The notes under the pieces were generated by a model that made no database searches, was not told the DNA's origin, and worked only from the letters and a program-made list of their open reading frames with translations. Shown in pieces: positions 29,296 through 54,165 of a stretch of DNA of 64,000 nt (position 1 is the stretch's first letter; each line of letters opens with the position of its first letter). The stretch is taken from positions 62,001 to 126,000 of the forward strand of contig NZ_JAOQNS010000004.1 in NCBI RefSeq assembly GCF_025961475.1, in the 5' to 3' direction. Origin of the DNA: Rhodobium gokarnense. GTDB lineage: Bacteria; Pseudomonadota; Alphaproteobacteria; Rhizobiales; Rhodobiaceae. Both the position numbers and the translations under genes were made by a program.

Positions 29296-29910
29296 ATGTC
29301 CGATTACGCTGACGCCATCGACGATCTGCTCTCGGCCCATGTCGCGGGGTCGCTCGCGCTGCCTCTCGACGTACTGGCGCGCAGCTATCTGGAATTGTCA
29401 CCGGACGCACGGACATTTACCCACGGTCTGGAGGCCGCCTCCGGCCATCTCCTCGAAGATATTCAGCCGGTCACGGTGAGCGCCCGGGAGACCATGCTTG
29501 AACGCGTGTTCGCGGTTCCCCAGGACGGTGCTTCGCCGGCCGTGGCGCCGCAGCCGGACGGGCCCGTGCCGGTCGCGCTGAGGCGCTTCATCGGCTGCGA
29601 CCTCGACCAGATCCCATGGACGGAGATGATGCCGGGCATCCTGTCCCACGAGATCGGCTCTTATGACGGGATTGCCGCACGCATCGTCAGGCTCGCTCCC
29701 GGCCTTGTCATTCCCGCCCACGACCACGAGGGGATCGAGAGCGCATTGATCCTCGACGGCGGGCTGACCGACGAACACCGCCAGTACCTTCGCGGCGACC
29801 TGTCGATGGCCGGCGCCGGCATCGTGCATCGCCAGCAGGTGGACTACGACGGCGAATGCCTGTGCTTTGCCGTCACCGTCGGCACGCTGAAATTCATCGA
29901 GCCGCTCTGA
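29296..29910 (+). CDS. ChrR-like cupin protein with degenerate anti-sigma domain
   Basis: 204-residue protein with the two-part layout of ChrR anti-sigma factors. Residues 1-90 match the helical anti-sigma region (DDLLSAHVAGSLALPLDVLARSYLEL), but the zinc H-x3-C-x2-C motif is absent: LSPDARTF stands where a C-P-A-C-like motif is expected, and the protein has no cysteine there. Residues 95-204 are a cupin with plausible metal ligands in PAHDHEGIESAL and IVHRQQ. No ECF sigma gene lies next to it. It may be an orphan, zinc-independent anti-sigma or simply a cupin sensor. Confidence 0.78.
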   Translation: MSDYADAIDDLLSAHVAGSLALPLDVLARSYLELSPDARTFTHGLEAASGHLLEDIQPVTVSARETMLERVFAVPQDGASPAVAPQPDGPVPVALRRFIGCDLDQIPWTEMMPGILSHEIGSYDGIAARIVRLAPGLVIPAHDHEGIESALILDGGLTDEHRQYLRGDLSMAGAGIVHRQQVDYDGECLCFAVTVGTLKFIEPL

Positions 29911-32716: not shown

Positions 32717-34006
32717 TCATAGAGGTGCCCCGAGCGCGCGCGCGCGGTCAAGCCGTGGGGGAGGATCCACATAGGCGTCGGGCATGTTGAGCCGGCGCGA
32801 CAGGATCCGTTCGGCCATGTTCTCCACCGCCGCCTTCAGACCGTCATCATTGTAGATCGAGCCGCGCACCTGGACCGTTCCGGTCAGCGCGCGGATGAAG
32901 GCGGCGAGCAGCTCCTCGTCGGGCGGCTCCGGCGCCGACCAGAAATCGTAGAGTTCGCGCCGGTCGGTCAGGCCTTCGATGTCGTAGATCGCCGGTGTCA
33001 GGGTTTTCGTCGGGCAGCCATGCATCAGCGCCTCGATGCCGGCGGTGCTGTTGACCGTGACCATGCCGGAGGCAAAGGGCAGCATCTCGTCGAGCCGGCC
33101 GCCGTCGAGATAGTGGATGCGGTCTTCAAGGTCATAGGCCGAGACAATGGCACCGATGGTCTTTGGCCAGTTTTCCAGGCCGTTGTCGAGCGGGTGTCCC
33201 TTGATGAGGAGGTGGGCGTCTTCGGGCGCATTCGCCGCGAAAGAGGCGATCACCGGCCGCAGCGCATCGGCCATGCCGTCAAAGGGCGAGTGATCGCGGA
33301 TCTGGAAGTCGCCCTCAAGCTGCATCGGGAAGACGAAGAACGGGATATTGCCTCGCTTCAGGCGTTCCACGACCGCTCCAGCTTCGCGGTTGCGCCGCTT
33401 CTCGCTGGCGAGTCGCGCGATCCAGGCAAGGTATTCCGGCACAGGGTGGTAGATCGTGTGGCGACGGTAGTGCGGCCAGAGCGGGGTGAAGAGCACGTTT
33501 GAGAGATTGTAGACGACGTCGGGGAACGCGACCTTGAAGAAGCTGCCGCGGTAGATCGGCGTCAGGTCCGGCTCCGGCACCTTCTCGGCAATCGCGCGAA
33601 TCGCATCCGGGTCGTCCGGGAAGTGGGAGCCGGTCGAGGTGGCGTCGCGCTCGATCGTCATCCAGTCGGGCCGCAGATAGCCGAGTTCCGTGGCGATCAC
33701 CCGGATGCTGCGGTGCCTGGCGCAGTCGGCGGCCAGCCGGTGGTAGATGCGCCGGTCGCCGTGCAGGATAAGGTCGGTGATGCCGTTGTCGGCCATGAAG
33801 CGGTCGACGAAGTCCGGCCAGTCGCGGACGCGGCCGCGATAGGCGACGGCACCGGGACGGCGCCAGTGCAGCCAGTCGCCGAAGCACAGGTTGATGCGGT
33901 GGACGGTGCTGCCGGCGCCCTCCAGGGCATCGGCAAGGCGCGCATAGAGTGGCGACAGCGGGCCTTGCAGGAAGAGGAACGTGCGATGCCGCGCCGCGAT
34001 CGGCAT
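32717..34006 (-). CDS. KpsS-like capsule Kdo transferase (copy 2)
   Basis: 429-residue protein of the KpsS family; KpsS puts the first Kdo on the lyso-phosphatidylglycerol anchor of group 2 capsules. Visible features are FLFLQGPLSPLY at the N-terminus, NLCFGDWLHWRRPGAVAYRGR near 40, ELGYLRPDWMTIER near 105, PFFVFPMQLEGDFQIRDHSPF near 225 and LLIKGHPLDNGLENWP near 265, then VNSTAGIEALMHGCP near 320. It aligns along its whole length with the preceding gene and starts three bases after that stop, so it arose by tandem duplication. Confidence 0.88.
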   Translation of the reverse strand: MPIAARHRTFLFLQGPLSPLYARLADALEGAGSTVHRINLCFGDWLHWRRPGAVAYRGRVRDWPDFVDRFMADNGITDLILHGDRRIYHRLAADCARHRSIRVIATELGYLRPDWMTIERDATSTGSHFPDDPDAIRAIAEKVPEPDLTPIYRGSFFKVAFPDVVYNLSNVLFTPLWPHYRRHTIYHPVPEYLAWIARLASEKRRNREAGAVVERLKRGNIPFFVFPMQLEGDFQIRDHSPFDGMADALRPVIASFAANAPEDAHLLIKGHPLDNGLENWPKTIGAIVSAYDLEDRIHYLDGGRLDEMLPFASGMVTVNSTAGIEALMHGCPTKTLTPAIYDIEGLTDRRELYDFWSAPEPPDEELLAAFIRALTGTVQVRGSIYNDDGLKAAVENMAERILSRRLNMPDAYVDPPPRLDRARALGAPL

Positions 34007-34009
34007 GGC

Positions 34010-35410
34010 CTAGCCCGCCGGGTCGGTGGGGGCGGACCCAGACTGTTCCGCGGGGGCGGCCGGCTCGCTCGGCGGATTGCGCCGCTGCTTGGGCTTGAAG
34101 GAGGCGAGCATCGTCTCGTCGTCGACGACCGGGACGCCGGCGGCCTTGGCCGCTTCAAGGCGCGGCGGGGGATCGATGAAGGCGTCCGGCTCGTTGACCG
34201 TGCCCTCGATCAGGCGCTTTGCCATTTCCGGGATGGCGACGGCGCGGCCTTCCTTCGTATAGAAATTGCCCTTCACCTGGATGGTGGCGCCGACGGCGCG
34301 CACGAAGGCGTCGCGCAGTGCCGGGTCGGGCGGCTCGGACTTGGTCCAGAACTCGTCGAGCGATCCCTGGAAGGTGAGGCCGGGAATGTCGAAGACGGCG
34401 GCGCCCAGCACCTTGATCGGGCAGTTGGCGCGCATGGCGTGCAGGCCGACCGTGGAGTTGATGAGGATGGTGCCGCGCACCCGGTTCAGCATGACGTTGA
34501 GCTTGCCGCCATTGATCAGGTAGACGCGCTTCCAGACGCCGGCATCGCGGGCGATGCGCCGGACGATCCGCGGCCAGCCCTCAAGGCCGTTGTCGAGCGG
34601 ATGGACCTTGAAGATCAGCCGGGCGTTCTTCGGCGCATGGGCGGCAAAGGAGCGGATCGTCAGGTCGATGACTTCGGAAAGATGCGTGAAAGGCGAATTG
34701 GCGCGCACCTGGTAATCGCTCTGCATCTGCATCGGCAACAGGAAGAACGGGAACTTCTGGCGCTTCACCTTCTGGGTCACCAGCTTGGCGAGCCGGTGGT
34801 TCACATAGCTCGACATCAGGCCGGGAATATAGCTCAGATAGTCGACCAGAGGGTGGTAATACTTATCCGCGTCGTAGTGCGGATGCAGGAACGGAAAGAA
34901 CACCTGCGAGAGGTTGAAGATGACCTCGTGGCTGGCCTCGTGGCGGAATTTGTAGGGATACTTGGTCTCGCCGTCGAGTTCGGGAACCTTTGCCGCCAGT
35001 TCTCGGATCTTGTCCGGATCGTTCGGGAAATGGGAATAGGCGGACATGCCGCCGCGTTCCAGGGTGATCCAGTCGGGCCTGAGATACCCGAATTCATAGG
35101 TCGTCGGGACGATGCCGTGCTTCCTGGCGACGGCGGCCGCGACCTTGTGATAGGGCAGGCGGTCGGCATAGTAGACGACGTCGGTAACGCCCTCGCGGAG
35201 CATCAGCTCCTCGACGAAGTCGGCCCATTCCTCGAACTTGCCGCGGAAATTGACGGCCCCCTTCTTGCGCCAGTTGAAGCGGTCGCCGGCGCACAAATTG
35301 ACCCGGATCGTGCGCTGGCCGCGCCGGTCAAGCTCGTCGCTCAGGAGCTTGGCGAAGCTGGACGGGGGACCCTGAAGGAAAAGAAAGACGCGGCGCCGTT
35401 TCGCTGTCAT
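34010..35410 (-). CDS. KpsS-like capsule Kdo transferase (copy 1)
   Basis: 466-residue paralogue of the next gene. Shared blocks include FLFLQGPPSSFAKLL near residue 10, NLCAGDRFNWRKKGAVNFRGKFEEWADFV, YEFGYLRPDWITLERGGMSAYSHFPND, PFFLLPMQMQSDYQVRANSPF and LIFKVHPLDNGLEGWP, ending in a low-complexity tail rich in proline, alanine and serine (last 40 residues). ATG 35410 is preferred; the frame is open to a TTG at 35416. First gene of the leftward run, divergent from the rkpH-like gene with 272 bases between them. Confidence 0.88.
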   Translation of the reverse strand: MTAKRRRVFLFLQGPPSSFAKLLSDELDRRGQRTIRVNLCAGDRFNWRKKGAVNFRGKFEEWADFVEELMLREGVTDVVYYADRLPYHKVAAAVARKHGIVPTTYEFGYLRPDWITLERGGMSAYSHFPNDPDKIRELAAKVPELDGETKYPYKFRHEASHEVIFNLSQVFFPFLHPHYDADKYYHPLVDYLSYIPGLMSSYVNHRLAKLVTQKVKRQKFPFFLLPMQMQSDYQVRANSPFTHLSEVIDLTIRSFAAHAPKNARLIFKVHPLDNGLEGWPRIVRRIARDAGVWKRVYLINGGKLNVMLNRVRGTILINSTVGLHAMRANCPIKVLGAAVFDIPGLTFQGSLDEFWTKSEPPDPALRDAFVRAVGATIQVKGNFYTKEGRAVAIPEMAKRLIEGTVNEPDAFIDPPPRLEAAKAAGVPVVDDETMLASFKPKQRRNPPSEPAAPAEQSGSAPTDPAG

Positions 35411-35682: not shown

Positions 35683-36477
35683 ATGGCCCGACCCGATCCG
35701 ACATCGATCCTCATTACCGGGGCCACCGGCGGCATCGGCATGGCGCTGGCCAGGGCCTATGCCGGGCCGGGGATCGTGCTCGGCCTGACCGGCCGCGACG
35801 GGGCGAAGCTCGAGGCGATTTCGGCCGAATGCCGGGACAAGGGGGCGACGGTCGTCGCCGCAACGGTCGACATTCGCGACCGTCCGGGTCTGCACGCCTG
35901 GCTCGCCGATCTCGATGCGCGGCATCCACTTGACCTTGCGATCGCCAATGCCGGGGTGACCGGCGGGCTCGGGCCGGGGCGCAGCCGGGAGAGCGATGCC
36001 GATGCGGAGCGCCAGGCGGAGATCAACTACAAGGGCGTCGTCAATACGGTTTCCGGCATCGTCGAACCCATGCGGGCGCGCGGGCGCGGGCAGATCGCGC
36101 TCGTCTCCTCGCTCGCCGGGATCATGGCGCTGCCGGACATGCCCTCCTACAGCGCCAGCAAGGCGGCCGTCGTCGCCTATGGGGATTCCTTGCGCGGCTG
36201 GCTGAAGCCGTTCGGCATCCATGTGACGATCATCTGTCCGGGCTTCGTCACCTCGCCGATGTCGGCGCGCCACCAGGGCGCAAAACCCTTTGAAATCTCT
36301 GCGGAAAAAGCGGCGACGATCATTCAGAAGGGGCTCAGGGGCCGGCGCGCGATGGTCGCCTTTCCGCTGCCGCTCGTGGTCGGCATCACCCTCAACAAGA
36401 TGCTGCCGAGGAAGATCGGCGACCTTTTCATGGGCGGATTTTCGGCCGAGATCGAGCCGGACGGAAGAAAGGACTGA
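35683..36477 (+). CDS. rkpH: Short-chain dehydrogenase/reductase, RkpH-like
   Basis: 264-residue NAD(P)-dependent reductase. Cofactor motif TGATGGIG near residue 12, NAG near 90, catalytic Ser in ALVSSLAG near 140 and YSASK near 154. A hydrophobic C-terminal part (MVAFPLPLVVGITLNKMLPRKIGDLFMGGF) suggests membrane attachment and lipid substrates. In Sinorhizobium rkpH lies next to rkpG in the capsule lipid cluster; here it converges on rkpG with ten bases between the stops. Together with RkpG and RkpA it could reduce a keto-lipid intermediate. The specific rkpH label rests on context. Confidence 0.8.
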   Translation: MARPDPTSILITGATGGIGMALARAYAGPGIVLGLTGRDGAKLEAISAECRDKGATVVAATVDIRDRPGLHAWLADLDARHPLDLAIANAGVTGGLGPGRSRESDADAERQAEINYKGVVNTVSGIVEPMRARGRGQIALVSSLAGIMALPDMPSYSASKAAVVAYGDSLRGWLKPFGIHVTIICPGFVTSPMSARHQGAKPFEISAEKAATIIQKGLRGRRAMVAFPLPLVVGITLNKMLPRKIGDLFMGGFSAEIEPDGRKD

Positions 36478-36487
36478 GTTTTTGCGT

Positions 36488-37864
36488 TCAGGCGCCGCCT
36501 AAAATCTTGCCGAACTGGGAGCCCTGTTCGCGGATCTTGCCGAGTTCCTCTGCCGTTGCGGCAACCGTCTGGCGGATCTGCTCGCGGGTGTGCTCCGACG
36601 TGATGAAGAAGCGCAGGCGCGCCGACTTCTCCGCCACGGCCGGGTAGATGATCGGCAGCGCGTTAATGCCGCGCTCGAAGAGACTGTTGGAAAGCATTGC
36701 TGCGCTTACCGAATCTCCCGTGATCACCGGGATCACCGAATAGCCCATGGACGGGCCCGTATCGAGCCCGGCCTCGGCGGCCAGCTCCAGGAACAGGCGG
36801 CCGTTCTCGCGCAGGGCCTCGACCCGGTGCGGCTCGCGCAGCATGATCTCCACGGCCTTGGCCGAGGCGGCGCCGACCGGCGGGGCGATGCCGACGGAAA
36901 AGACGAAGCCGGGGGCGCCGACCTTCAGATATTCCACCAGCGCCGAGGAGCCGGCGATGTAGCCGCCGCAGCCGGAAAGCGTCTTGGAGAGGGTCCCCAT
37001 CCAGATCTCGACCTCGGTGGGATCCGTCCCGAAATATTCCGCAATTCCGCGACCCGTCTCGCCGAGGACGCCGATCGAATGGGCCTCGTCGACCATCAGC
37101 CAGGCATCGTGGCGGCGTTTGATCTCGATGAGGCGCGGCAGGTCGGGGAAATCCCCGTCCATGCTGTAGAGGCCTTCCACCGCGATCAGCACCCGCTCGA
37201 AGCGGGAGCGGTGGTTGGCAAGCATCTCCTCCAGCGCATCGAGATTGTCGTGCGGAAAGAGCATGCGGGCGGCGCCGGAGAGCTTGATGCCTTCGGTGAT
37301 GGAGTTGTGGATCAGCGCGTCGCAGATGACGAGGTCGTTCGGCCCCATCAGATGGCCGATGGAGGTGACGTTGGTGGCGTGGCCGGAGACCATGACGACG
37401 GCGTCCTCGACGCCGTGCATGTCGGCGAGGGCCTTTTCCAGATCCCGGTGGAACGGCCGTTCGCCGGCAACGACCCGGCTCGCCGAAACGGTGGTGCCGT
37501 AGCGCCGGATCGCCTCGGTGGCGGCCTCGGCGACCTCCGGATGGCCGTTGAGGCCGAGATAGTTGTAGGACGCGAAGTTGATGTAGGTCTGATTGCCGAT
37601 CAGCGTGGTGTCGCGGGCGAGCGCCTCGTGCGGCCGGAAGAACGGGTTATCGATGCCGATCAGTTCGGCCGCGGCGCGCTGCATGCGGTACTGCTTGACG
37701 TCGTCCAGTTCGGAGAAGTCGAAGGCCTTCTTGCCGGCCTTGGCGCTCTGGCGGGCAGGGGCCGGACGGCGCTCCTTCCTGGTCTTCTTGGCCGAGCGGA
37801 TGTCGGCCAGGAGCTGGTCCTTGGCGCCGCCGGTGAGGCCGCCGATACCGCGTTGCTTGGTCAT
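36488..37864 (-). CDS. rkpG: Alpha-oxoamine synthase family PLP enzyme, RkpG-like
   Basis: 458-residue enzyme of the family containing 8-amino-7-oxononanoate synthase, 2-amino-3-ketobutyrate CoA ligase and serine palmitoyltransferase, which join an amino acid to an acyl thioester with loss of CO2. Residues 1-55 are a basic extension absent from housekeeping members. Then INFASYNYLGLNGHPEV near 93, GTTVSASRVVAGE near 125, DEAHSIGVLGETGRGI near 258 (cofactor Asp and His) and the Schiff-base lysine in TLSKTLSGCGG near 293. Its ATG overlaps the stop of the giant synthase gene, so both are made together; it may release the synthase product. Confidence 0.87.
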   Translation of the reverse strand: MTKQRGIGGLTGGAKDQLLADIRSAKKTRKERRPAPARQSAKAGKKAFDFSELDDVKQYRMQRAAAELIGIDNPFFRPHEALARDTTLIGNQTYINFASYNYLGLNGHPEVAEAATEAIRRYGTTVSASRVVAGERPFHRDLEKALADMHGVEDAVVMVSGHATNVTSIGHLMGPNDLVICDALIHNSITEGIKLSGAARMLFPHDNLDALEEMLANHRSRFERVLIAVEGLYSMDGDFPDLPRLIEIKRRHDAWLMVDEAHSIGVLGETGRGIAEYFGTDPTEVEIWMGTLSKTLSGCGGYIAGSSALVEYLKVGAPGFVFSVGIAPPVGAASAKAVEIMLREPHRVEALRENGRLFLELAAEAGLDTGPSMGYSVIPVITGDSVSAAMLSNSLFERGINALPIIYPAVAEKSARLRFFITSEHTREQIRQTVAATAEELGKIREQGSQFGKILGGA

Positions 37865-40800
37865 TTCAGGAAGTTCCTGAGCGTCTGGCTCTTTTCCTCG
37901 ATGGCCGCGGCGATCGCGGTCATGTCTTCGCTGCCGGCGGTCTCGTGGTCCATGTGCCGCTGCGAGAGGGTTTCCATATCGGCCGAAATGCCGCTTTCTT
38001 CTTCGCCCAGCACCCGGGCGGTGACCTTGCCGGCGATGTCGGAGAGGGTGGCGCCGTTGGCGATCGACATCAGGGGGATGTCGATGCCGAGGCGCTGCTC
38101 CGCCGCCATCCTGAGTTCCAGCGCCATCAGCGAATCCATGCCGATCTCGGAGAGCGGCCGGTGGCGGTCGATCTCCTCGGCCGGCAGGCGCAGGATGCGG
38201 GCGATCTCGCCGGACAGCAGCTTGGCGACCGTCTCGATGGCCTGGGGCCGGTCGAGGCCGGAGATCAGTTCCGCAACGTCGATCTCCGCGCCGCCTTCCG
38301 AACTCTCCGCCTCAAGGTCGGAGGCAAGGTCGGCAAAGAGCGGCGTGGCGAGCAGCGCCAGCTCCTTCTGGGCCGAGGCCCAGTCGATGCGGGCGTAGGA
38401 GATGGCAGCGTCCGGCGAATGGACGAGCAGGCGGCCGAGGCCGTCCAGCGCCTCGCGGGCACCGAGCGCATGGCGGCCGAGCTTGCGGCTCAGCATGTCG
38501 TTGACGTCGGTGTTGCGGGCGAGGTAGCCGGCATCGGAAATCGCGCCCCAGGCGACGGCCAGCCCGGCCTTGCCGTCGGCGCGGCGCTTGCGGGCGAGCG
38601 CTTCCAGATAGGCGTTGGCGGCGACGTAGTTGGCCTGTCCCGGATTGCCGACGATGGTGGTCGCCGAGGAGAACAGGACGAAGAGGTCGAGATCGATGTC
38701 GGCGGTGAGCCGGTCGAGATTGGCCGCGCCCGCGATCTTCGGGGCGAGCACCTTTTCGATGCGGCCCTCGTCGAGATTGGCGATGAGGGCGTCGTCGAGC
38801 ACCATGGCCGTGTGCAGGATGCCGGCGAGCGGCGGCATGTCGGCCTTCAGCTCGGCGAGCATCTTTTCGGTCGCAGCGGCATCCGCGACGTCGCAGGCGA
38901 TCGGCTTGACGGTGACGCTGGCGGCCTCCAGCTCGGCGACGGCGGCTTTGGCCTCGTCCGTCGCGGCGCCGCGGCGGCTGGTGATGGCGAGATTGCGGGC
39001 GCCGAGGCCGACAAGCCATTTAGCGGTCTCAAGGCCGAAACCGCCGAAGCCACCGACGATCAGGTAGGTGGCGTTTTCCTTCAGGGCGAGCGGTGCGGCG
39101 GGCGGGCGGGCCTCCACCGCGCGCGGCGCGGTGAGGATGATCTTGCCGATATGGCCGGACTGCTGCATCAGCCGGAAGGCGCGGGTCGCATCGTTGCCGG
39201 AGAACTTGCGATAGGGCAGCGGCGTCAGCACGCCTTCCTCGAACAGCTCGACCAGTTCGGCGAAGATGCGGTCGGCGATCTTCGGCTGGCGGGTCAAGAG
39301 CTGGTCGGCGTCGATGCCGAAATAGGAGAGGTTCTGGCGGAACGGGCGAAGGCCGATGCGGGTGTTGGCGTAGTAGTCGCGCTTGCCGAGCTCCAGGAAC
39401 CGGCCGAACGGTTTCAGCACGTCGATGGAGCGCATCATCGCCTCGCCGAACAGCGAGTTCAGCACCACGTCGATGCCCTCACCATTGGTGATCTCGGCGA
39501 TCTCGTCGGCAAAGGTGAGGGAGCGGGAATCGAGCACGTGCTCGGCGCCGAGCATCCTCAGGAACGCGCGCTTCTCCTCCGAGCCCGCCGTGGCGATGAC
39601 CGTGGCGCCGCGCCAGCGGGCGATCTGCAGGGCGGCAAGGCCGACACCGCCGGCACCGCCATGGATGAGGACGGTCTCGCCCTCTTCCAGATGGGCAAGA
39701 TAGACCAGGGCGTAATAGGCGGTGAGGAAGGTGACCGGGATGGTCGCGGCTTCTTCCAGCGTAACCGTGGACGGCATGGGCGCGCAGGCGCGCTCGGAAA
39801 CCGTAACGTGGGTGGCGAAGCAGGCAGGCGCAAAGGTCAGCACCTTGTCGCCGGGCTTGAAGCGGGCAACGTTCGGCCCGACGCGGGTGACCGTGCCGGC
39901 GCCTTCCATGCCCAGCGTCGGGCCGGCAAAGCCGTCCTCCAGCGCCTCTTCGGGAAGCAACCCGAGGGCCCACATGACGTCGCGGAAATTGAGGCCGCTG
40001 GCGGCCATCTCGATCTCGATCTCGCCGTCGGCCGGTTCGGCCCGGGCGATGCGGTGCCAGGCAAGGCCGTCGAGGGAGCCCTGGCGAACCATGTCGAGGC
40101 GGTAGCCGGCGTCGTCTTCCGGTCCGTCGAACTCGCCAGGAGAGGGCAGCACGCCGCCATGGACGACACGGATGCCGCTGCGGCGGCTGGCGTCGAGCAC
40201 GACCTCGCGTTCGGTGCCCGGCTCGGCGATCTCGGCGGCGAGCCGGCTGGCGGCCTCGCCCGGCTCGAGCGCCGGGGCGACGTCGACCATGCGCAATTCG
40301 ATGCCGGGGAACTCGTTGGCGGCAACGCGGCCGAAGCCCCAGAGCGCCGTCTGCACCGGCCGGTGGACGGCGTCGTTGACGAGGTTCTGGGCGGCGCCCG
40401 GCGCCACCAGCCAGAGGCGCAGCTCGGCATTGCCGAGGGACTGCAGGAGGGCGGTAAGTTCGCTCGTCCTGGCGGTGACGGCGGCGAGCGGCGCCGCTTC
40501 GTCGGCACCGACAGCGGACAGGTAGACGATCTCCGTGCCGGGCTCGGCCATGACGAGGGCCTTGAAGGCGGCGCGGTCGTCGTCGCTTGCCAGCGACAGC
40601 GTCCAGGTGCCGTCGCCCTTGTCCTTGGTGCGCTCGCCGGGGATTGCCGTGACGAGCGTGCGGCCGTCGGCAAAGCTTGCGGCCAGCGCATCGGCCAGCG
40701 TCCGCGGAGCACCGCCGGCCTCCGTGACCATGACGATGCGGGCGGGCGCGACGGCGGCTTCCTCGGCCGGGGCCGCACCGTTGACGCGCCGCTTGGCGCG

Positions 40801-43800
40801 CGCCGACAGCATCAGCATATCGGTGTCCGGATCGTCGATCTGGACGATGCCGCAATCGGCGAAGCCAGCCTCTGAAAGCTGGGCGGCCCAGTCCTCCGGC
40901 CCGCGCAGCATGGAGACCGGCAGGTCGTGATCCGCGGTTTCCGACCACCAGTCGGCGCCGATGCCGAACAGGAGGTCGAAGGTCAGGCTCGGCGCGATCT
41001 CGGTGGCGATCAGCGCGCCGCCGGAGGCCATCAGGTTCTTGATGTCGCGCAGCCTTGCCTCGTCTGCCTGGGCAAGGCCATTGGCGGAGACGACGAGGTC
41101 GAAGCCGCCATGGGCGGCGGTTTCCGCGGCAACGTCCTGGAAGGCCGTATAGCTGCGGCCCGGCATGGCGGTCGCCCGCGCCTTGGCGCGTTCCAGCTCG
41201 TGGTCGTCGAGGTCGCTGACGGTGAGGCTGGTGAAGGCCGGATCGAGGAAGCGCGACAGTTCGTAGGTGAGCTGGCCGTTGCCGGCGCCGAGCTGCAGGA
41301 TGCGCAGCGGCGCCTCGCGCGGCCAGTCGGCGGCGATCGCCTCCACGGTGCGGGCGACGGAGCAGATGCCGGGGATGAAGGACGGCGAACCGGTGACCAG
41401 ATGGTCGACGACGGCCGGCGTGAAGAACGCGGTCGCGGTGTCGACAAAGCCGTCCCTGAGGATGCCGGGAAGGGCGTCGTGCAGGTGGGTGAGGAGGGCG
41501 ACCTCGGCGATGCGGTCGGGATGTTCCGCGACCAGCGTCGACAGGATGTCGCGCGGGTCAGGCAGGCCGCTTTCGGCCTCGATGCGCCAGGTGCCGTCGG
41601 TCTCTTCGGCAAGGTCCGCGGCCTCGAGCGCCAGCAGCAGCCGGTTGGCGAGGGTCTTCGTCTCCGACGCGAGCAGGCCCTTGGTGATCGCGGTGTCGGT
41701 CCTGAAGGCGGCAAGGTCGCCATCGGCGATCGCGGCGATGCCGGCATAGGCGATGGCCCGGGCAGTCGCCTCGATGAGAAGCCAGGCTTCCGAGGTGTCG
41801 CGCTCTTCCGGATCGGCGTCGGCGGCCAGCACCAGCTCGTGCTTGCGGGCATAGGCAAGGACGTCGCCGGCAGCGAGGTCGGCAAGGGCGGAGGCCTCGC
41901 CGCGGCGGCCGAGCCGGCGGCCGACCGTGCGGTAGACCAGTTCGTCGGGCAGTTCACGGCGGGCGAGCGGCACGGCGCGGAAGCGGGTGCCTTCCAGCAC
42001 GGCGACGATCTCGCCGTCGGCGTCGATCAGCTCGAAGGTCGCCTCGATGGAGCGGGGCGAGGCCCTGGTGACGCGGATGATGCCGTGGTCGGCCTGGACG
42101 CCGGCCTTGAAGAGCCTGAGGCGGCCGATGCGGACCGGCAGGAAGCTGGTGTTGGCCGGCGCCTCGCCGACGCGGGCGATCAGGGCGAAGAGGCCGTGGA
42201 AATGGCTGTCGAGCAGCGTCGGGTCGAGGGCGAAGCCGGCAGTCTCGGTGAGCGCGCCGGGGGCCTTGAAGTCGACACGGGCGATGCGGTCGCCGGCGGT
42301 GGCGACGCCGGCCGCGCGGCGGAAGGCGGGGCCGTAGAAGAGGCCGAACTCCTCGGTCAGGCGATAGAGCGGCTCGGCCTCAAGGCCGCCGTCCACCTCC
42401 GGCACCGGCTCCTGCCGGTACGGGATATCGGGAAGCTTTGCCAGCGTGCCGCGGACATGCATCGACCATTCGTCGTCGGAGAGCCGGGCGCGGCTGTAGA
42501 TCTCGAAGACGAGGTCGTCGGGCGACAGGCGCAGCAGGGTTTCGCGGGTGTCGTGGCCGTCGGCGGTGAGCGGGCGCATGATGTCCATGTCGCGCAGCTC
42601 CAGCCGGTCGGAGCCAAACCATTCGCGGCCGGCCGCAAGGGCCATCTCGACGAAGCCGGCGGCGGGGACGACGACGGAGTCCTCGATCTTGTGGTCTTCC
42701 AGGAGCGGGACCAGTTCCGCATCGATATGGTTGAACCATTCGCCGGCCTCGGCCCGCATGCGGTAGCCGAGCAGCATGTGGTTGCGGCCGTCGAGATAGG
42801 AGACGGCCTCCGACGTGCGGTCCGGGCGGAAGCTCTGGTTCTGCCAGGGATAGGTCGGCAGCACGACGTTCGCGCGCACCGGCTTGCCGAACAGGACGTC
42901 CTTGTCGACGGTGCCGCCGGCGGCAAAGGTGCTGGCGACGATCTGGCCGATCGGGTCGACCTTGGTGCTGTCGTCCTTGTCGAGGGAGGAGACGCAGGCG
43001 ACCGAGATGTCGCGCGCGCGATAGGTGTCGTTGGCGTAGGTGTTGAGCACCGGCCGCGGGCCGATCTCCACCAGCACCCGGTGGCCCATGTCGGCGAGGG
43101 TCTCAAGGGCGGCCTGGAAATAGACCGGCCGGCGGACATTTTCCCACCAGTAGTCGGCATCCAGCGAGCTGCCGGCGACCTTTTCGCCGTAGACGGCGGA
43201 AATGAAGGTGACGTCGCCGTCGACCGGGGTGATATCCCTCAGCGACTGGTTCAGGGGCGCCTCGATCGGATCGACGAGGGCGCAATGGAACGGGTAGTCG
43301 AGCTTCAGCCGGCGTACGGCCCAGCGCTTCTTGCGGGCGTATTTGCCGAAGGCGTCGAGCAGGTCGCTCGGCCCGGAAATGGTGACGGAGCGCGGGCTGT
43401 TGACGGCGGCGATCTCGATGCCCTTGAACTCGGGCGGGGAAATCGCCTCGCGCGCCTGATCCTCCGGCAACAAGAGGGCGGCCATGCCGCCGAGGTGACG
43501 GATCACCTCCTGCTGGGTCGAGCGGGCGTGGATGACGCGCACGGCCTGGTCGAGGTCGAGGGCGCCGGCGGCCCAGGCCGCGGCAACCTCGCCGACGCTG
43601 TGGCCGGTGACGGCGGCCGGCTTCAGGCCGCGCTTGGCGAGCGCCTCGGTCAGCGCAACCTGGATGGCAAAGAGCAGCGGCTGGGCGATCTCCGTGCGCT
43701 CGATTTCCGATTCCAGCTCGGCCGAGAACAGGGTCGTCAGCAGCGACCAGCCGGCGACGGAGATGAAGCGCTTGTCGACCCGCTCCAGCGAAATGCGGAA

Positions 43801-45465
43801 GTCGGCATCGTTCTGGTAGGCGTCGCGGGCCATGCCGGCCCATTGCGAGCCGTTGCCGGAATAGAGGAATGCCACCTCGGTCGCCTTGGCGACGGCACGG
43901 GCCTCCACATAGGAGGTCGACTTCTCGCGGGCGATGAAGGCGTCGATGCCGGCGAGCTTTTCCTTGCGGTCACGGCCCATGATGACGAGCCGGCGGTCGA
44001 GCGCCTCGCGGCTATGGGCGGCGGCGTTGACGATCGCCGCCGTGCGGGCGTTGTCGGCGCGCTCGATTTCCTCGCGATAAGCCGAGGCCAGCGCCGTCAG
44101 CGCCTCGGCCGACTGGGCCGACAGCACCAGCGGCGTATGCTCGTCGGGCTCATGGTCGGGGGCGGCAAGGTCGGAGGCGTCCGGGTCGCGCAGGATGACG
44201 TGGGCGTTGGTGCCGCCGAAGCCGAAGGAGTTGACGCCGGCATAGCGCGGCTCGCCGTTGCGGGCGATCCTGGTCGGCTTGGTGACGACCTTGAGGTTGA
44301 GGCCCTCGAAGTCGATGTCCGGGTTCGGCGTGTCGAAATGCAGGGACGGCGGCAGCACGTCGTGCTCCAGCGCCATCACGGCCTTCAGGAGGCCGGCAAG
44401 GCCCGACGCGGGCTCCAGGTGGCCGATATTGGTCTTGACCGAGCCGATCTTCAGGACATCGGAACGCTTGGTGCCGAGCACCCTGCCGAGCGCGGAGGTC
44501 TCGGCCGGATCGCCGACGCGGGTGCCGGTGCCGTGGGCCTCGATGAAGGCGAGCGCATTGGGGTCGACGCCGAACTCGCGGTAGACGTCGTCGAGCAGGA
44601 CCGCCTGGGATTCCGGCGAGGGCAGGGACATGCCGACGGTGCGGCCGTCCGAATTGATGCCGGAGCCGACGAGCAGGCTGCGGATGCCGTTGCCTTCTGC
44701 GCGGGCGACGTCGGCGCGGCGGATGACAATGGAAACCGCACCCTCGGAGCGGACATAGCCCTGGCCGTCGGCGTCGAACGCCCGGCACAGGCCATCCGGC
44801 GACAGCATGGAGGCGCGCGCGAAGCCGATGAAGGCGAGCGGGGCCAGCAGCAGGTTGACGCCGCAGACGACGGCCGTGTCGATATGGCCGGTGCGGATCG
44901 CCTCCAGCGCCTCATGCAGGGCGACGAGGGAGGACGAGCAGGCGGTATCGACCGTGAAGCTCGGGCCGCGCAGGTCGTAGATATAGGAGATGCGGTTGGA
45001 GATGATCGACAGCGTGTTGCCGGTCATCAACTGCACGTCGCCGGCGGCCGGATCGAAGATGAAGCGATAGGAATAGTCGAGTGAGGAGGCGCCGACATAG
45101 ACGCCGACCTTTTCGCCGGCGATCTTGCTGGCCGGAATACCGGCATTCTCAAGCGATTCCCAGACCACCTGCAGAAGCAGGCGCTGCTGCGGGTCGATCT
45201 GCACGGCCTCGCGCGGCGAAATGCCGAAGAACCCCGGATCGAATCCCCACACGTCGTCGAGCTGGCCGGCGGCCCAGGTGTAGCTCTTGCCGGGAACCGC
45301 ACGGTTCGGGTGGCCGAAACGGGAGGTCGGCCAGCGGTCGCCGGAAACTTCGCCGATGACGCACTTCCCGTCTACGAGAACCTTCCAGAAGTCCTCCGGG
45401 GAATCGGCCGACGGAAGTCGGCATGCATAGCCGACGATCGCAATGTCGCGGGTTTCACCGTACAT
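37861..45465 (-). CDS. rkpA: RkpA-like single-module reducing polyketide/fatty acid synthase (KS-AT-DH-MT-ER-KR-ACP)
   Basis: 2534-residue type I synthase. KS 1-430 has C176 in DTACSSS, H311 in EAHGTGT and H349 in KTNIGHL. AT 530-830 has S623 in GHSVGE, and PFHCALV points to malonyl-CoA. DH 890-1170 has H925 with a D in place of the usual G in HxxxGxxxxP, and D1086 in LLDSHFH. A methyltransferase-like domain lies around 1340-1560 (LQLGAGNGQLT near 1391). ER has HGGAGGVGLAALQ near 1935. KR has GGFGGFGLETAKWL near 2140, an LDD motif and catalytic YVAANAY near 2283. ACP has GMDSLMALEL near 2443. There is no thioesterase. It is homologous in layout to rhizobial RkpA for the K-antigen lipid. Confidence 0.93.
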   Translation of the reverse strand: MYGETRDIAIVGYACRLPSADSPEDFWKVLVDGKCVIGEVSGDRWPTSRFGHPNRAVPGKSYTWAAGQLDDVWGFDPGFFGISPREAVQIDPQQRLLLQVVWESLENAGIPASKIAGEKVGVYVGASSLDYSYRFIFDPAAGDVQLMTGNTLSIISNRISYIYDLRGPSFTVDTACSSSLVALHEALEAIRTGHIDTAVVCGVNLLLAPLAFIGFARASMLSPDGLCRAFDADGQGYVRSEGAVSIVIRRADVARAEGNGIRSLLVGSGINSDGRTVGMSLPSPESQAVLLDDVYREFGVDPNALAFIEAHGTGTRVGDPAETSALGRVLGTKRSDVLKIGSVKTNIGHLEPASGLAGLLKAVMALEHDVLPPSLHFDTPNPDIDFEGLNLKVVTKPTRIARNGEPRYAGVNSFGFGGTNAHVILRDPDASDLAAPDHEPDEHTPLVLSAQSAEALTALASAYREEIERADNARTAAIVNAAAHSREALDRRLVIMGRDRKEKLAGIDAFIAREKSTSYVEARAVAKATEVAFLYSGNGSQWAGMARDAYQNDADFRISLERVDKRFISVAGWSLLTTLFSAELESEIERTEIAQPLLFAIQVALTEALAKRGLKPAAVTGHSVGEVAAAWAAGALDLDQAVRVIHARSTQQEVIRHLGGMAALLLPEDQAREAISPPEFKGIEIAAVNSPRSVTISGPSDLLDAFGKYARKKRWAVRRLKLDYPFHCALVDPIEAPLNQSLRDITPVDGDVTFISAVYGEKVAGSSLDADYWWENVRRPVYFQAALETLADMGHRVLVEIGPRPVLNTYANDTYRARDISVACVSSLDKDDSTKVDPIGQIVASTFAAGGTVDKDVLFGKPVRANVVLPTYPWQNQSFRPDRTSEAVSYLDGRNHMLLGYRMRAEAGEWFNHIDAELVPLLEDHKIEDSVVVPAAGFVEMALAAGREWFGSDRLELRDMDIMRPLTADGHDTRETLLRLSPDDLVFEIYSRARLSDDEWSMHVRGTLAKLPDIPYRQEPVPEVDGGLEAEPLYRLTEEFGLFYGPAFRRAAGVATAGDRIARVDFKAPGALTETAGFALDPTLLDSHFHGLFALIARVGEAPANTSFLPVRIGRLRLFKAGVQADHGIIRVTRASPRSIEATFELIDADGEIVAVLEGTRFRAVPLARRELPDELVYRTVGRRLGRRGEASALADLAAGDVLAYARKHELVLAADADPEERDTSEAWLLIEATARAIAYAGIAAIADGDLAAFRTDTAITKGLLASETKTLANRLLLALEAADLAEETDGTWRIEAESGLPDPRDILSTLVAEHPDRIAEVALLTHLHDALPGILRDGFVDTATAFFTPAVVDHLVTGSPSFIPGICSVARTVEAIAADWPREAPLRILQLGAGNGQLTYELSRFLDPAFTSLTVSDLDDHELERAKARATAMPGRSYTAFQDVAAETAAHGGFDLVVSANGLAQADEARLRDIKNLMASGGALIATEIAPSLTFDLLFGIGADWWSETADHDLPVSMLRGPEDWAAQLSEAGFADCGIVQIDDPDTDMLMLSARAKRRVNGAAPAEEAAVAPARIVMVTEAGGAPRTLADALAASFADGRTLVTAIPGERTKDKGDGTWTLSLASDDDRAAFKALVMAEPGTEIVYLSAVGADEAAPLAAVTARTSELTALLQSLGNAELRLWLVAPGAAQNLVNDAVHRPVQTALWGFGRVAANEFPGIELRMVDVAPALEPGEAASRLAAEIAEPGTEREVVLDASRRSGIRVVHGGVLPSPGEFDGPEDDAGYRLDMVRQGSLDGLAWHRIARAEPADGEIEIEMAASGLNFRDVMWALGLLPEEALEDGFAGPTLGMEGAGTVTRVGPNVARFKPGDKVLTFAPACFATHVTVSERACAPMPSTVTLEEAATIPVTFLTAYYALVYLAHLEEGETVLIHGGAGGVGLAALQIARWRGATVIATAGSEEKRAFLRMLGAEHVLDSRSLTFADEIAEITNGEGIDVVLNSLFGEAMMRSIDVLKPFGRFLELGKRDYYANTRIGLRPFRQNLSYFGIDADQLLTRQPKIADRIFAELVELFEEGVLTPLPYRKFSGNDATRAFRLMQQSGHIGKIILTAPRAVEARPPAAPLALKENATYLIVGGFGGFGLETAKWLVGLGARNLAITSRRGAATDEAKAAVAELEAASVTVKPIACDVADAAATEKMLAELKADMPPLAGILHTAMVLDDALIANLDEGRIEKVLAPKIAGAANLDRLTADIDLDLFVLFSSATTIVGNPGQANYVAANAYLEALARKRRADGKAGLAVAWGAISDAGYLARNTDVNDMLSRKLGRHALGAREALDGLGRLLVHSPDAAISYARIDWASAQKELALLATPLFADLASDLEAESSEGGAEIDVAELISGLDRPQAIETVAKLLSGEIARILRLPAEEIDRHRPLSEIGMDSLMALELRMAAEQRLGIDIPLMSIANGATLSDIAGKVTARVLGEEESGISADMETLSQRHMDHETAGSEDMTAIAAAIEEKSQTLRNFLK

Positions 45466-46230
45466 TCAAAAGCCGTTTGTTATTTGTCCGTTTTGCTTGT
45501 TTCGGCGCCGCGACGCAAGGAGCGTGCCGGGTGTGCTGGGTGTTTGAGCCACAAAAACGCATGTCGTCCCTCAAGGTCAACCAATCCCCACGCGCGGCTG
45601 CCCGCGGTCCGCGCAGGACGCTTGGTTTCTGGCCCCCACGACACCAAACTAAGCCTCGGGTCATACTGTATCGGTCAAAACTGCGCAAGCAGCGGACAAC
45701 AGCCCGCGGGCGCGGGAAACCCTCGCCATCTTGCATCGCGCCGAACGTTGATTCCTGTGGTTTTTTCAAATTTTGCCGCTCCCCGGTCGGTTCAGTGTCG
45801 AATTCGCAAAGGTTTTCTTGCCGTATTCCTTTGCCGTGGCCGACGCTTCAAAATTTGTAAACCATTGTTACGCCCGGCCGTCGACCGCTGTCCGGGCGGT
45901 GCTTGCGGGATGTCGATCGGACGACAGCGCACCGGCGCAAACCACGATGCCCCGGGCACGCCAAAGCGCGCGCCGGGACCGGCCGTGCCGCGGTCACCGT
46001 CTCCTGGTCTTTTCCCCGAGCGTTTGCCGCAGTCCATAACGCGCTCCCGTTGCGCCGACCCGGCAGGGATTCCCCTTGTTGTCCCTAAGTCCGACGACTA
46101 ATGGTCAAATGTGTCAGGTTTCGGGACAGGGAAAGGGCCTGCTCCGGGATCACGCCCGGGCGTTTGTCAGCGGCCGGCGAAGCGGGTAAGGAGACGGCTT
46201 CCCTGTTTCCGTTGCTGCCGGGGCGTTCCG
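45466..46230. other. Long divergent region between rkpA-like and KpsC-like genes
   Basis: Up to 765 bases without a supported gene (less if the KpsC-like frame starts at 46111). Less GC-rich patches occur at 45466-45500, about 45745-45780 and 45840-45875 and probably hold the synthase promoter and upstream control sites. Open frames here are short and unlike any family. The length suggests more than one promoter or a small RNA, but neither can be shown. Confidence 0.45.
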
Positions 46231-48318
46231 TTGGACCTTTCGAACCGTTCGATCCGCAAAGACGTGGCGGCCGTGTTTTCCACCGGCATGGTCAAGATCC
46301 CGCATCTTGAGGCGCTGCTCGGCGTCTCCGGCGTGCTGGAATGGCCGTCCGACGCCCATGCCGGCGACGTCGACATCGTCATCGGCTGGGGCACCAAGCC
46401 GACGGCGCGCAAGGCCCGTGCCTATGCGAGCCGCAACGGCCTTCCTTACGTCGCCGTGGAGGACGGGTTCCTGCGCTCGGCCGGTTCGGCCTCGGCGAAG
46501 CTGCCGCCGGTCTCCGTCGTCGTCGATGACCGCGGCATCTACTATGAAGCCGCGCGGCCGTCGCGCATCGAGCACCTCATCCGCAGCGCATCGCACCTCG
46601 ACGCACGGCGCCGGGCCGAGGCGGAGGAGGGGTTCGACCTCTTCCTGCGCCACCGGCTGACCAAGTACAACACGGTCGCACCGGCCGGCAGCGGAAGCGG
46701 ATCGGCGCGGCGGCGCTGGAAGGTGCTGCTCGTCGACCAGGTGTTCGGCGACCAGTCGATCGCCGGCGGGCTCGCCAGTGCCGGCAGTTTCCTCAGGATG
46801 ATCGAGACCGCGCTGAGGACCTTTGCCGCGGCCGACATCGCCGTGAAGGTGCATCCCGACGTGATGGCCGGACGCGCCCGGGGCTATATCGACCGGGTCG
46901 CGCGGGACCAGGGCCTCCATCTCATCGCCGACATGGGCAATCCGCATGACCTCCTGGAACGGGTCGATGCGGTTTGGACCGTGACCAGCCAGCTCGGCCT
47001 TGAGGCCGCGTTCAGGGGCCTTCCGGTGCGCTGCTTCGGCGTGCCGTTCTTTGCCGGCTGGGGCCTCACCGAGGATACGCCCGACGACGGCAAGGCGCGG
47101 ATGGCGCTCTCGCGCCGCGGCGAGACCCGCACGGCCCTCGATATCTTTGCCGCCGCCTATCTGGAATACGCCAACTATGCCGATCCGGTGGGCGGCAGGG
47201 TCTTCGGGCTCCTTGAGGCGATCGACCGGCTCGTTTCCTGGCGCGATCACGCCGAAGGCAACCGCATCGACACGGTTTGCGTTTCCTGGCCGCTTACCGA
47301 GCGCAAGGCGGCGCGGTCGTTCTTCAACGACGGCGGCAACCGGCTCTCCTTTGCCGGGCGGCTTGTCGGCCCGATCCTGGCGCGGCGGACCGATGCGCGG
47401 CTCCTGTTCTGGAAGGAGGCGCCGGGCATCGACCGGCATGCCGATCCGCGCCGGGCCGACCGGGGCGTCGTCGGGATAAGCCCGATGGATTTCTTCGAAG
47501 GGCGCGGGCCGGGCAGGGCCGCCACCTCACTGGTCGTCGACGACCGGGCGCCGTTCGGCAAGGAGGGGCGGCTCGACTGGGTGCTCGGGCATTATCCCTT
47601 CAACGAGCGCCTCAGGGCGCGCGGCAAGGCGCTGGCTACGACCCTCGTTGCCGGCCTTGCGGCCGCTGCCGGCGACGGCGAGGCCGCGGAGCGGAGCACG
47701 GATCAGGTCCTAGTGGTGCTGGGGGAAAAACTCGACGGTGTGCGCCGCCATGCGGACCATCCGTTCGCCAGCAATCTCCTCTTCCTGCGCGCCGTGCGCG
47801 ACGCCTTTCCCGACGCAAGGCTCCTCTATGTCGATCATCCCGACTGCGCGGCGCGCGCGGCGCCCGGCTGGCTGACCGAGGACATGGCCGCGGCCTGGGC
47901 CGACGGCTTCGAGACGCTGGAGCGCATCGTTGCCGGCAAGGTCGCGGTCGACGGCGTCCACACGGTCGGCTCTGACGCCGGCTTTGCCGCGCTGATGGCG
48001 GGTCTTCCCGTCACCTGTTGGGGAGCGCCTTTCTATGCGGGGCGGGGTCTCACCACCGACCGGGCGCCCGTTCCGGATGGCCGCCGTCGGCTCACGCTCG
48101 ACGAACTGGTCGCCGGCACGCTGATCGTTGCCTCCAGCCACATTGATGCGCGCACCGGCATTCCCTGTTCGGCCGAGGACGTCGCAACCCGCATCCTGGC
48201 GGAGCGGGAAGGGCGGCTGACCCGGCGCCTCCTGCCGCGCACGGCCTGGTACGCCCCGGCGCTCGCGGCCGCGAACCGGCTCAGGGCACGCTTTCGGCAG
48301 TTCGTCTCGTTCTCCTGA
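46231..48318 (+). CDS. kpsC: KpsC-like capsule Kdo transferase, long two-module form
   Basis: About 695 residues from TTG 46231. The first module is well conserved: KIPHLEALLG, WGTKPTARKARAYA, VAVEDGFLRSAGSASAKLPPVSVVVDD, LTKYN, VKVHPDVMAG and GVPFFAGWGLTED. The second half keeps GAPFYAGRGLTTD and the GLPVTCWG core, but the EDGFLRS loop is missing and the HPD region reads LYVDHPD, so its activity is doubtful. Start options are GTG 46111, TTG 46231, GTG 46264 and ATG 46288; none has a good ribosome-binding site, and E. coli KpsC begins close to the 46264 position. Divergent from rkpA. Confidence 0.84.
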   Translation: MDLSNRSIRKDVAAVFSTGMVKIPHLEALLGVSGVLEWPSDAHAGDVDIVIGWGTKPTARKARAYASRNGLPYVAVEDGFLRSAGSASAKLPPVSVVVDDRGIYYEAARPSRIEHLIRSASHLDARRRAEAEEGFDLFLRHRLTKYNTVAPAGSGSGSARRRWKVLLVDQVFGDQSIAGGLASAGSFLRMIETALRTFAAADIAVKVHPDVMAGRARGYIDRVARDQGLHLIADMGNPHDLLERVDAVWTVTSQLGLEAAFRGLPVRCFGVPFFAGWGLTEDTPDDGKARMALSRRGETRTALDIFAAAYLEYANYADPVGGRVFGLLEAIDRLVSWRDHAEGNRIDTVCVSWPLTERKAARSFFNDGGNRLSFAGRLVGPILARRTDARLLFWKEAPGIDRHADPRRADRGVVGISPMDFFEGRGPGRAATSLVVDDRAPFGKEGRLDWVLGHYPFNERLRARGKALATTLVAGLAAAAGDGEAAERSTDQVLVVLGEKLDGVRRHADHPFASNLLFLRAVRDAFPDARLLYVDHPDCAARAAPGWLTEDMAAAWADGFETLERIVAGKVAVDGVHTVGSDAGFAALMAGLPVTCWGAPFYAGRGLTTDRAPVPDGRRRLTLDELVAGTLIVASSHIDARTGIPCSAEDVATRILAEREGRLTRRLLPRTAWYAPALAAANRLRARFRQFVSFS

Positions 48319-54063: not shown

Positions 54064-54165
54064 CGGTCGCGGGGGACGTTTGCGGGTCGAGCCGATGGTG
54101 GCGTTGAAAACCGGGACGGCAGGGCATGCCTGCCGGGCCCCGACCGGGGTGCAGCGGGGTTGGCG

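Follow-up and report, generated by a model that had tools for sequence, protein, structure and literature searches.

A polyketide synthase and α-oxoamine synthase pair in a capsule locus of Rhodobium gokarnense, and a proposed sphingoid-type capsule anchor

Introduction

A 64,000-nucleotide stretch of the Rhodobium gokarnense genome, referred to below as the window (bases 62001-126000 of contig 4, in a 5.1-Mb genome of 25 contigs that is 98.8% complete), contains a capsule gene cluster in which a mono-modular polyketide synthase (PKS) of the RkpA type is directly followed by an α-oxoamine synthase (AOS) of the RkpG type and adjoined by a short-chain dehydrogenase/reductase (SDR). It is probable, in our judgment, that these three proteins make a sphingoid-type lipid anchor for a capsule that is linked through 3-deoxy-D-manno-octulosonic acid (Kdo) and exported by an ATP-binding cassette (ABC) transporter. 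The locus, which also encodes KpsS/KpsC-type Kdo transferases (four PF05159 proteins), is of the rkp-1/wcb kind, and its chemistry is of the PKS-AOS sphingolipid kind.

The proposal is carried by two lines of evidence. According to Peters et al. (2025), PfSgaAB of Pseudomonas fluorescens MYb115 makes C24, C26, and C28 sphinganines, deletion of sgaA or sgaB abolishes these compounds, and PfSgaB condenses long acyl-CoAs almost exclusively with L-serine (PMC12134224). These data mean that the biochemical half of the idea, which a sequence-only reading of positions 35683..45465 had already voiced, has been established for a system of the same kind. That interval holds the PKS, AOS, and SDR genes and leaves out the four Capsule_synth (PF05159; KpsS/KpsC-type) proteins of the same cluster. 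The second line, added by the present analysis, is the association of RkpG-type genes with capsule genes. Among the open-licence PMC matches listed, no title or abstract beginning joins PKS-AOS sphingoid synthesis to capsule anchoring, and neither the placement of RkpI in the LtaS-like family nor a lineage with two KpsS genes and no LtaS-like gene was met; within that scope, these three elements are new here.

Synthesis and Release of the Acyl Chain

The three genes of the proposed lipid pathway are as follows.

37861..45465, minus strand: PKS of the RkpA/WcbR/SgaA type, 2534 aa (Pfam)
36488..37864, minus strand: AOS of the RkpG/SgaB type, 458 aa (NCBIfam scores, solved relatives, tree, and alignment)
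35683..36477, plus strand: SDR, an open reading frame (ORF) convergent with the AOS gene, proposed 3-keto reductase in the RkpH/SgaC position (Pfam)

The stop of the PKS gene overlaps the start of the AOS gene in the motif ATGA, as first noticed from the letters alone and now confirmed by coordinates and sequence. In the Pfam analysis, the PKS displays the domain order KS-AT-DH-(ψ)MT-ER-KR-ACP with a single ACP, the DH being matched as two halves, and no thioesterase appears among the 17 families found at E ≤ 0.001. The earlier description of a single-module reducing synthase without thioesterase is thereby borne out, and by its sequence the protein would be a fully reducing PKS of the SgaABC type. 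Its domains, all on the minus strand, are listed below.

44176..45465: ketosynthase (KS), approximately residues 1-430 (Pfam)
42973..43869: acyltransferase (AT), YPFH motif (Pfam, 67-PKS alignment)
41968..42780: dehydratase (DH), His925, Pro934, and Asp1086 intact (Pfam, 67-PKS alignment)
41017..41301: methyltransferase-like domain (MT), GAGNG S-adenosylmethionine (SAM) motif kept in the window copy (weak Pfam match)
39133..40029: enoyl reductase (ER) (Pfam, 67-PKS alignment)
38536..39072: ketoreductase (KR) (Pfam, 67-PKS alignment)
38029..38217: acyl carrier protein domain (ACP), Ser2445 (Pfam, 67-PKS alignment)

The alignment comprises the window PKS, those of 62 of 80 related loci (by gene call), and those of 4 plasmid loci (n = 67); the window protein is 38-40% identical, over 98-99% of the length, to the copies of Sinorhizobium meliloti, Pseudomonas, and Paraburkholderia. 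The residues C176/H311/H349, S623, H925/D1086, Y2280, and S2445, to which we assign the catalytic roles in KS, AT, DH, KR, and ACP, are invariant in 67/67 sequences, and the nucleotide motif of the ER is kept with few exceptions. Residue 726, within the AT specificity motif, is Phe in 65/67 PKSs, which by the motif rule (YPFH) we take to indicate the malonyl-CoA type. The SAM motif is degenerate in most copies: its middle glycine is Gly in 27/67, and the column of its last glycine holds mostly gaps or other letters. An MT as a defining active part of the family is ruled out, although the window keeps GAGNG behind a weak Pfam match. Because of this degeneration, the module looks like a fatty-acid synthase that retains the relic of a methyltransferase; intact active sites, a malonyl-type AT, and an unconserved SAM motif therefore lead us to expect that the ACP carries a chain that is saturated and mostly unbranched.

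The AOS is a pyridoxal 5'-phosphate (PLP) enzyme of the BioF/Kbl/SPT type, and its best solved relatives are 8-amino-7-oxononanoate synthase (AONS)/2-amino-3-ketobutyrate CoA ligase (KBL)-type enzymes and serine palmitoyltransferases (SPTs). A tree of 86 sequences was computed by a quick method with SH-aLRT supports and no bootstrap, covering the window, 43 of the 80 loci, 10 of 12 plasmid loci, 2 class loci, 20 SPTs, and 10 others; the rows nearest to the window AOS are those of Stappiaceae (Roseibium, Stappia) and Pseudoxanthobacter. K294, the PLP lysine, is invariant in the alignment, as are D259, H262, and H186. Position 129 is taken here to be that of Thr83 of 5-aminolevulinate synthase (ALAS), which bars amino acids larger than glycine; it is Ser in 55/56 RkpG-type and 20/20 SPT rows, Val in 5/5 KBL-clade rows, and Thr in 2/2 ALAS rows, 3 further rows of the set being left out of this table. 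The KBL and ALAS rows of the window's own genome were identified by NCBIfam, and the other KBL rows were named by their tree position. In addition, the window AOS is 58.5% identical to that of a Pseudomonas plasmid PKS-AOS capsule cluster. The behavior of PfSgaB, together with S129, makes serine the most likely predicted co-substrate.

By annotation, an AOS lies inside a longer protein, a type I PKS, on a Planktothrix agardhii plasmid (L144:8533-16131) and inside a 1607-aa protein on a Streptomyces anthocyanicus plasmid (L145:11371-16194). Such fusions are consistent with AOS release of a carrier-bound chain.

The SDR carries TGxxxGIG, NAG, and YxxxK in its translation, which we read as SDR motifs, and it shares 44% identity with its counterpart in a PKS-AOS capsule cluster of Pseudomonas, the comparison partner for 3-ketosphinganine reductase homology. 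We infer that it reduces the ketone. The enzyme placed beside the synthase by the sequence-only reading is a real SDR, and its gene lies on the plus strand, convergent with the AOS gene (stops 10 bases apart), and so is not co-transcribed with it; membership in an operon with PKS and AOS is ruled out. Of the earlier sequence of chain synthesis, AOS release, and reduction, the first two steps rest on homology to the Pseudomonas pathway, in which PfSgaC, itself an SDR, is described as a proposed 3-ketosphinganine reductase (PMC12134224).

Association with Capsule Genes

Genome counts were made in 398 genomes of the phylum and 190 genomes of the class, with author-chosen cut-offs of E ≤ 1e-100 for RkpG and E ≤ 1e-40 for PF05159; the two 398-genome draws, like the two 190-genome draws, were taken as identical sets because their genome identifiers agree, and overlaps were counted by hand. 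A strong PF05159 match is present in 15/22 RkpG-positive phylum genomes versus 43/376 others (Fisher p 4e-9). Counted by genus, the proportions are 10/17 and 35/196 (p 4e-4), and within the class they are 6/8 and 6/182.

At the level of loci, the named set is the best 80 of 590 relatives and is biased to near kin; 49 of these loci are at least 20 kb long and were treated as full-length. KS and AOS occur together in 62/80, 16 of the remaining 18 being shorter than 20 kb, and this pairing exceeds chance. The 49 full-length loci contain KS and AOS in 47 cases, an SDR in 27, at least one capsule gene in 26, and an LtaS-like gene in 15; a capsule or LtaS-like gene is present in 32 and neither in 17. 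Canonical SPT loci of equal size served as a control (20, taken from 24 genomes over the cut-off): capsule, KS, and LtaS-like genes occur in none of them, and an SDR gene occurs in 1. The plasmid loci (12 of 16 plasmid matches) have a capsule gene in 9 and an LtaS-like gene in 9. The hidden Markov model (HMM) thresholds for loci were set by the authors, and the locus scores are not independent, since the loci themselves supplied the training genes for the models, several of which include the window's own gene; the SPT control loci are outside the training set. Each ORF was labelled by its best model only, with fused PKS-AOS proteins counted as AOS, so that the KS counts are minima. RkpG-type genes are associated with capsule genes by genome, genus, and locus, and the capsule link suggested for the lipid genes by the sequence-only reading is supported by gene neighborhoods.

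Capsule Genes and Exporter of the Window Genome

The four Capsule_synth proteins of the cluster, whose presence makes it an rkp-1-like capsule locus, are listed below.

30997..32649, minus strand: KpsC-like protein, mainly a partial model match (HMM match to KpsC model positions 256-660 of 682)
32717..34006, minus strand: KpsS-like copy a, first Kdo transferase type (PF05159; 208 bits against a KpsS equivalog cut-off of 600)
34010..35410, minus strand: KpsS-like copy b, paralogue of copy a (PF05159; 212 bits against the same cut-off of 600)
46111..48318, plus strand: KpsC-like poly-Kdo transferase, divergent from the PKS gene, start uncertain (46111 or 46231) (PF05159)

All PF05159 matches of the genome (7/7) fall inside the capsule cluster, and KpsS-like copy a is 48% identical to S. 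meliloti RkpJ. The contig also carries a KpsT-KpsE-KpsD set of the kind used by group 2-like ABC capsule exporters, approximately 176 kb from the cluster; KpsM was not recognised in the 40 kb read there.

The cluster is bordered by a gene for a bacterial alpha-2-macroglobulin (window 48571-56250; 1830 aa by codon score), which adjoins that of penicillin-binding protein 1C, the two forming a common pair. A ChrR-type anti-sigma factor gene (window 29296-29910) lies close to the opposite end.

Head Group and KpsS Duplication

Clusters of many relatives, S. meliloti rkp-1 (RkpI) included, encode an LtaS-like protein of the phosphoglycerol-transferase superfamily. Four residues of this family, E226, T268, D448, and H449, are invariant in two alignments (10 and 12 partly shared rows) and presumably correspond to the catalytic residues of LtaS; judged by sequence, phosphoglycerol transfer is the best guess for its function. 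Such a transfer would account for three further MYb115 compounds, which were assigned by mass as most likely phosphoglycerol-sphinganines (PMC12134224), and it would provide an analogue of phosphatidylglycerol (PG), described in a review as the acceptor used by KpsS (PMC12220298). The earlier statement that the capsule is anchored on a sphingoid "instead of lyso-phosphatidylglycerol" is unsupported in that form, given that the clusters of many relatives add this LtaS-like protein. Where KpsS uses PG, lyso-PG is the finished lipid terminus, and relatives with the LtaS-like protein may have phosphoglycerol-sphinganine as an anchor that mimics it.

Two observations concern the LtaS-like proteins themselves. 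Mean charges in L055:790-2385 and its family weakly suggest an N-out, C-in arrangement with a cytoplasmic catalytic domain, as judged roughly from hydropathy and the positive-inside rule without a control protein; the topology of LtaS is the opposite. The gene at the rkpI position of S. meliloti Ak57 (L140:17343-18905) encodes an LtaS-like PF00884 membrane protein whose first ~80 residues look unrelated, and it may be frameshifted or start in another frame.

The window's own genome yielded no LtaS-like match with either one sequence or a 10-row profile, and against the LtaS-like model its two PF00884 matches reach 6.2 and 0.1 bits. On these sequence, profile, and model searches, we reject the presence of an LtaS-like protein of the RkpI type, within an assembly of the completeness given above.

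The relation between KpsS and LtaS-like genes was compared in 32 loci with KpsS-like genes, out of 121 scanned, which are not all independent because L043 and L176 share an identical KpsS. None of the 8 two-KpsS loci has an LtaS-like gene nearby, and a genome-wide search of those 8 returned only two partial matches of 37 bits; one-KpsS loci have such a gene nearby in 18/24 cases and elsewhere in the genome in 2 more (20/24). The interpretation that the two states are independent switches (0/8 versus 20/24, p 5e-5) was rejected on the KpsS tree: copies a and b form two sister groups derived from one old duplication, save one Pseudohalocynthiibacter row, so that the p value reflects essentially one duplication, close to one event. 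The pattern suggests that the second KpsS copy takes over the priming step.

Proposed Pathway and Its Significance

In the first step of the proposed pathway, the iterative PKS would join malonyl units into a long saturated chain, carried on its own ACP, as suggested by the intact, invariant active sites and by PfSgaA. The AOS would then free this chain by condensing it decarboxylatively with an amino acid, of which serine is the most likely, to yield 3-ketosphinganine, and the adjoining SDR would reduce the ketone to sphinganine. The sphingoid base, bare or with a head group, would serve as the acceptor for β-Kdo added by KpsS and KpsC. The capsule would grow on these Kdo residues and be exported by a machine of the KpsMT-KpsE-KpsD type, which is predicted from the gene neighborhood, KpsM not having been identified. 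That the product is used as the capsule anchor is, we infer, what the association with capsule genes reflects.

Where relatives have an LtaS-like protein, phosphoglycerol-sphinganine would probably serve as the acceptor. The priming step in the window must differ, since no LtaS-like gene was found and KpsS is duplicated. A specific version of this difference, which we offer as speculation, is that in the window lineage (with Stappiaceae, including Pseudovibrio, and Pseudohalocynthiibacter) the phosphoglycerol step is gone and the duplicated KpsS would start β-Kdo directly on an unphosphorylated sphingoid base, the entire capsule then being a single giant Kdo-glycosphingolipid with an anchor free of phosphate and glycerol.

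Should the carrier prove to be a sphingoid base, at least two anchor chemistries would exist among Kdo-linked capsules. If the proposal is true, many bacteria outside the counted sphingolipid makers produce a sphingoid base; the Pseudomonas phosphoglycerol-sphinganines gain a likely purpose as capsule anchor precursors, with the LtaS-like gene as the candidate head-group enzyme; and a long-unexplained step of rhizobial capsule building is solved in a testable form.

Alternative Explanations

Several findings weigh against the proposed anchor pathway, and they are taken here together with the alternatives. An unlikely alternative is that the products of PKS, AOS, and SDR are free sphingolipids, either membrane lipids or secreted, and that the three genes stand near capsule genes only because genes for surface lipids travel together; the capsule would then be built on PG or lyso-PG primed by KpsS as usual. 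MYb115 accumulates free sphinganines as well as the mass-assigned phosphoglycerol-sphinganines (PMC12134224). At the cut-off of E ≤ 1e-40, 7/22 RkpG-positive genomes are without a PF05159 match, and 23/49 full-length loci are without a capsule gene in 10 kb on either side; some RkpG-type members may accordingly serve other roles. Capsules, for their part, can do without RkpG, since 43 genomes have a strong PF05159 match and no RkpG. Furthermore, a 2005 study by Fraysse, judging by its title, reportedly found a phospholipid anchor on the poly-Kdo of S. meliloti 1021, which brings partly into play the glycerophospholipid anchor that the sequence-only reading had named as its own refutation. This phospholipid neither settles nor removes the sphingoid idea, because a phosphosphingolipid is also a phospholipid. 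Free sphingolipids fit poorly, however, with an association that lies far above controls at the genome, genus, and locus levels. Moreover, rkpA is listed among the genes whose mutation affects the K-antigen capsular polysaccharide (KPS) of S. meliloti 1021, and PMC4881576 credits the rkp-1 region with the synthesis of a specific lipid carrier used in KPS secretion, which ties the lipid genes to the capsule by genetics, beyond position.

The choice of amino acid raises a second alternative, one that we hold to be improbable, namely that RkpG condenses alanine or glycine and not serine, giving 1-deoxy or desoxymethyl bases of the fumonisin type and an anchor without a primary hydroxyl. The AOS matches the bioF, KBL-type, SPT, and ALAS models of NCBIfam, falling below the cut-off for all 14 models listed; its 335 bits with BioF exceed its scores with the canonical SPT models NF047599, NF047600, and NF047603, which relative to their cut-offs are 256/500, 288/640, and 191/670 bits. 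In the tree, the 56 RkpG-type rows group together (SH-aLRT 96) and stand separate from the 20 canonical alphaproteobacterial SPTs (SH-aLRT 100). The SPT-family PLP enzyme of the earlier reading is thus correct as a BioF/Kbl/SPT-type enzyme, and an identity as canonical SPT is ruled out by the scores below cut-off and the separate clade. Column 416 is Arg in 56/56 RkpG-type rows, as in KBL-clade and ALAS rows, versus Leu in 20/20 canonical SPTs. With the clade apart from SPT and Arg416 retained, serine specificity rests on PfSgaB. By the rule given above for position 129, Ser129 disfavors glycine, and a base without a C1 hydroxyl group offers no obvious site for phosphoglycerol or Kdo. The data on PfSgaB, almost exclusive for serine, also speak against alanine or glycine (PMC12134224).

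The sphingoid-type anchor pathway also meets some resistance at the reduction step and in its closest comparison. The SDR is only 30% identical to S. meliloti RkpH, and its 44% identity to the Pseudomonas protein lies within a very large superfamily. The plasmid cluster of Pseudomonas TMW, considered as a near-copy of the MYb115 cluster, gave 0 matches to primer-derived gene ends.

That the sphingoid acts as a carrier dedicated to transport or assembly, or as a lipid cofactor of the export machine, and not as the final anchor of the surface capsule is very unlikely, given that purified capsules of E. coli K1 and K5 and of N. meningitidis group B carry an intact lipid terminus according to a review (PMC12220298).

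Comparison with Known Systems

Fumonisin biosynthesis is a fungal toxin pathway, with C-methylation and alanine, in which a reducing PKS is released by an oxoamine synthase and the ketone is then reduced; unlike the locus described here, it is not a capsule route. Fum13 is mentioned in the paper on PfSgaABC (PMC12134224).

The window AOS shares with canonical SPT the PLP oxoamine-synthase chemistry and Ser at the selector position (20/20), whereas it belongs to a separate clade, and the 20 SPT loci examined are without PKS, capsule, or LtaS-like genes. The canonical alphaproteobacterial SPT is the Caulobacter type, accompanied by AcpR (PMC9386255). At least 3 genomes of the class sample (G080, G159, G186) have both an RkpG-type gene and a canonical SPT.

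Clusters of the Burkholderia wcb type, on plasmids of Paraburkholderia dioscoreae and Caballeronia insecticola, likewise contain SDR, PKS, and AOS beside capsule genes, with capsule export genes in both and a KpsS type in Paraburkholderia; going by gene order, these genes would correspond to wcbO-wcbT. They differ from the window in adding LtaS-like and LpxC-family genes. The LpxC-family deacetylase gene lies between PKS and AOS (L143:13887-14801, L146:13940-14866), its family having been checked in Paraburkholderia and taken from annotation in Caballeronia. A plasmid capsule cluster of Acidisoma (L179:14025-24007) has AOS, SDR, LtaS-like, and capsule genes, the AOS standing beside a fatty-acid-hydroxylase-family gene. 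Its 31-kb stretch yielded no KS, which suggests that the pathway can also be fed with ordinary acyl chains, a route that sphingoid chemistry would permit.

The rkp-1 region of S. meliloti (rkpAGHIJ) has the order PKS, AOS, SDR, LtaS-like (RkpI position), KpsS type, KpsF. It shares PKS, AOS, SDR, and KpsS-type genes with the window, the AOS being 54% and KpsS-a 48% identical. In contrast, its RkpI is an LtaS-like, sulfatase-superfamily protein, for which neither the window nor its genome gave a match; it has one KpsS-like gene where the window has two; and its SDR, 30% identical, is co-directional. For the large gene resembling a fatty-acid synthase in rhizobial (rkpA) and Burkholderia-type (wcbR) capsule clusters, the assigned role goes no further than "a specific lipid carrier" in PMC4881576 or "fatty acid synthesis" of the capsule in PMC7858667.

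The nearest biochemical counterpart is PfSgaAB(C), likened to the window by description, not sequence: both consist of an iterative single-module PKS and then an AOS, plus an SDR, and the window genome differs in having two KpsS genes and no LtaS-like gene found. Its published description counts 6,101 homologous clusters, found predominantly in Burkholderia, and presents a secondary-metabolite pathway, its main text making no mention of capsules or rhizobia (PMC12134224). If the locus tags KW062_RS19775-RS19805 step by five, the gap between sgaB and sgaC holds four genes (PMC12134224). The Pseudomonas TMW 2.1634 cluster also has four genes between AOS and SDR (dioxygenase, KpsC type, GNAT, LtaS type). 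By this equal spacing, the MYb115 cluster may itself belong to a capsule locus. The Pseudomonas plasmid cluster brings the two kinds of function together, with PKS, AOS, dioxygenase, KpsC, GNAT, LtaS-like, SDR, KpsS, KpsC, KpsF, kdsB, and kdsA in one place.

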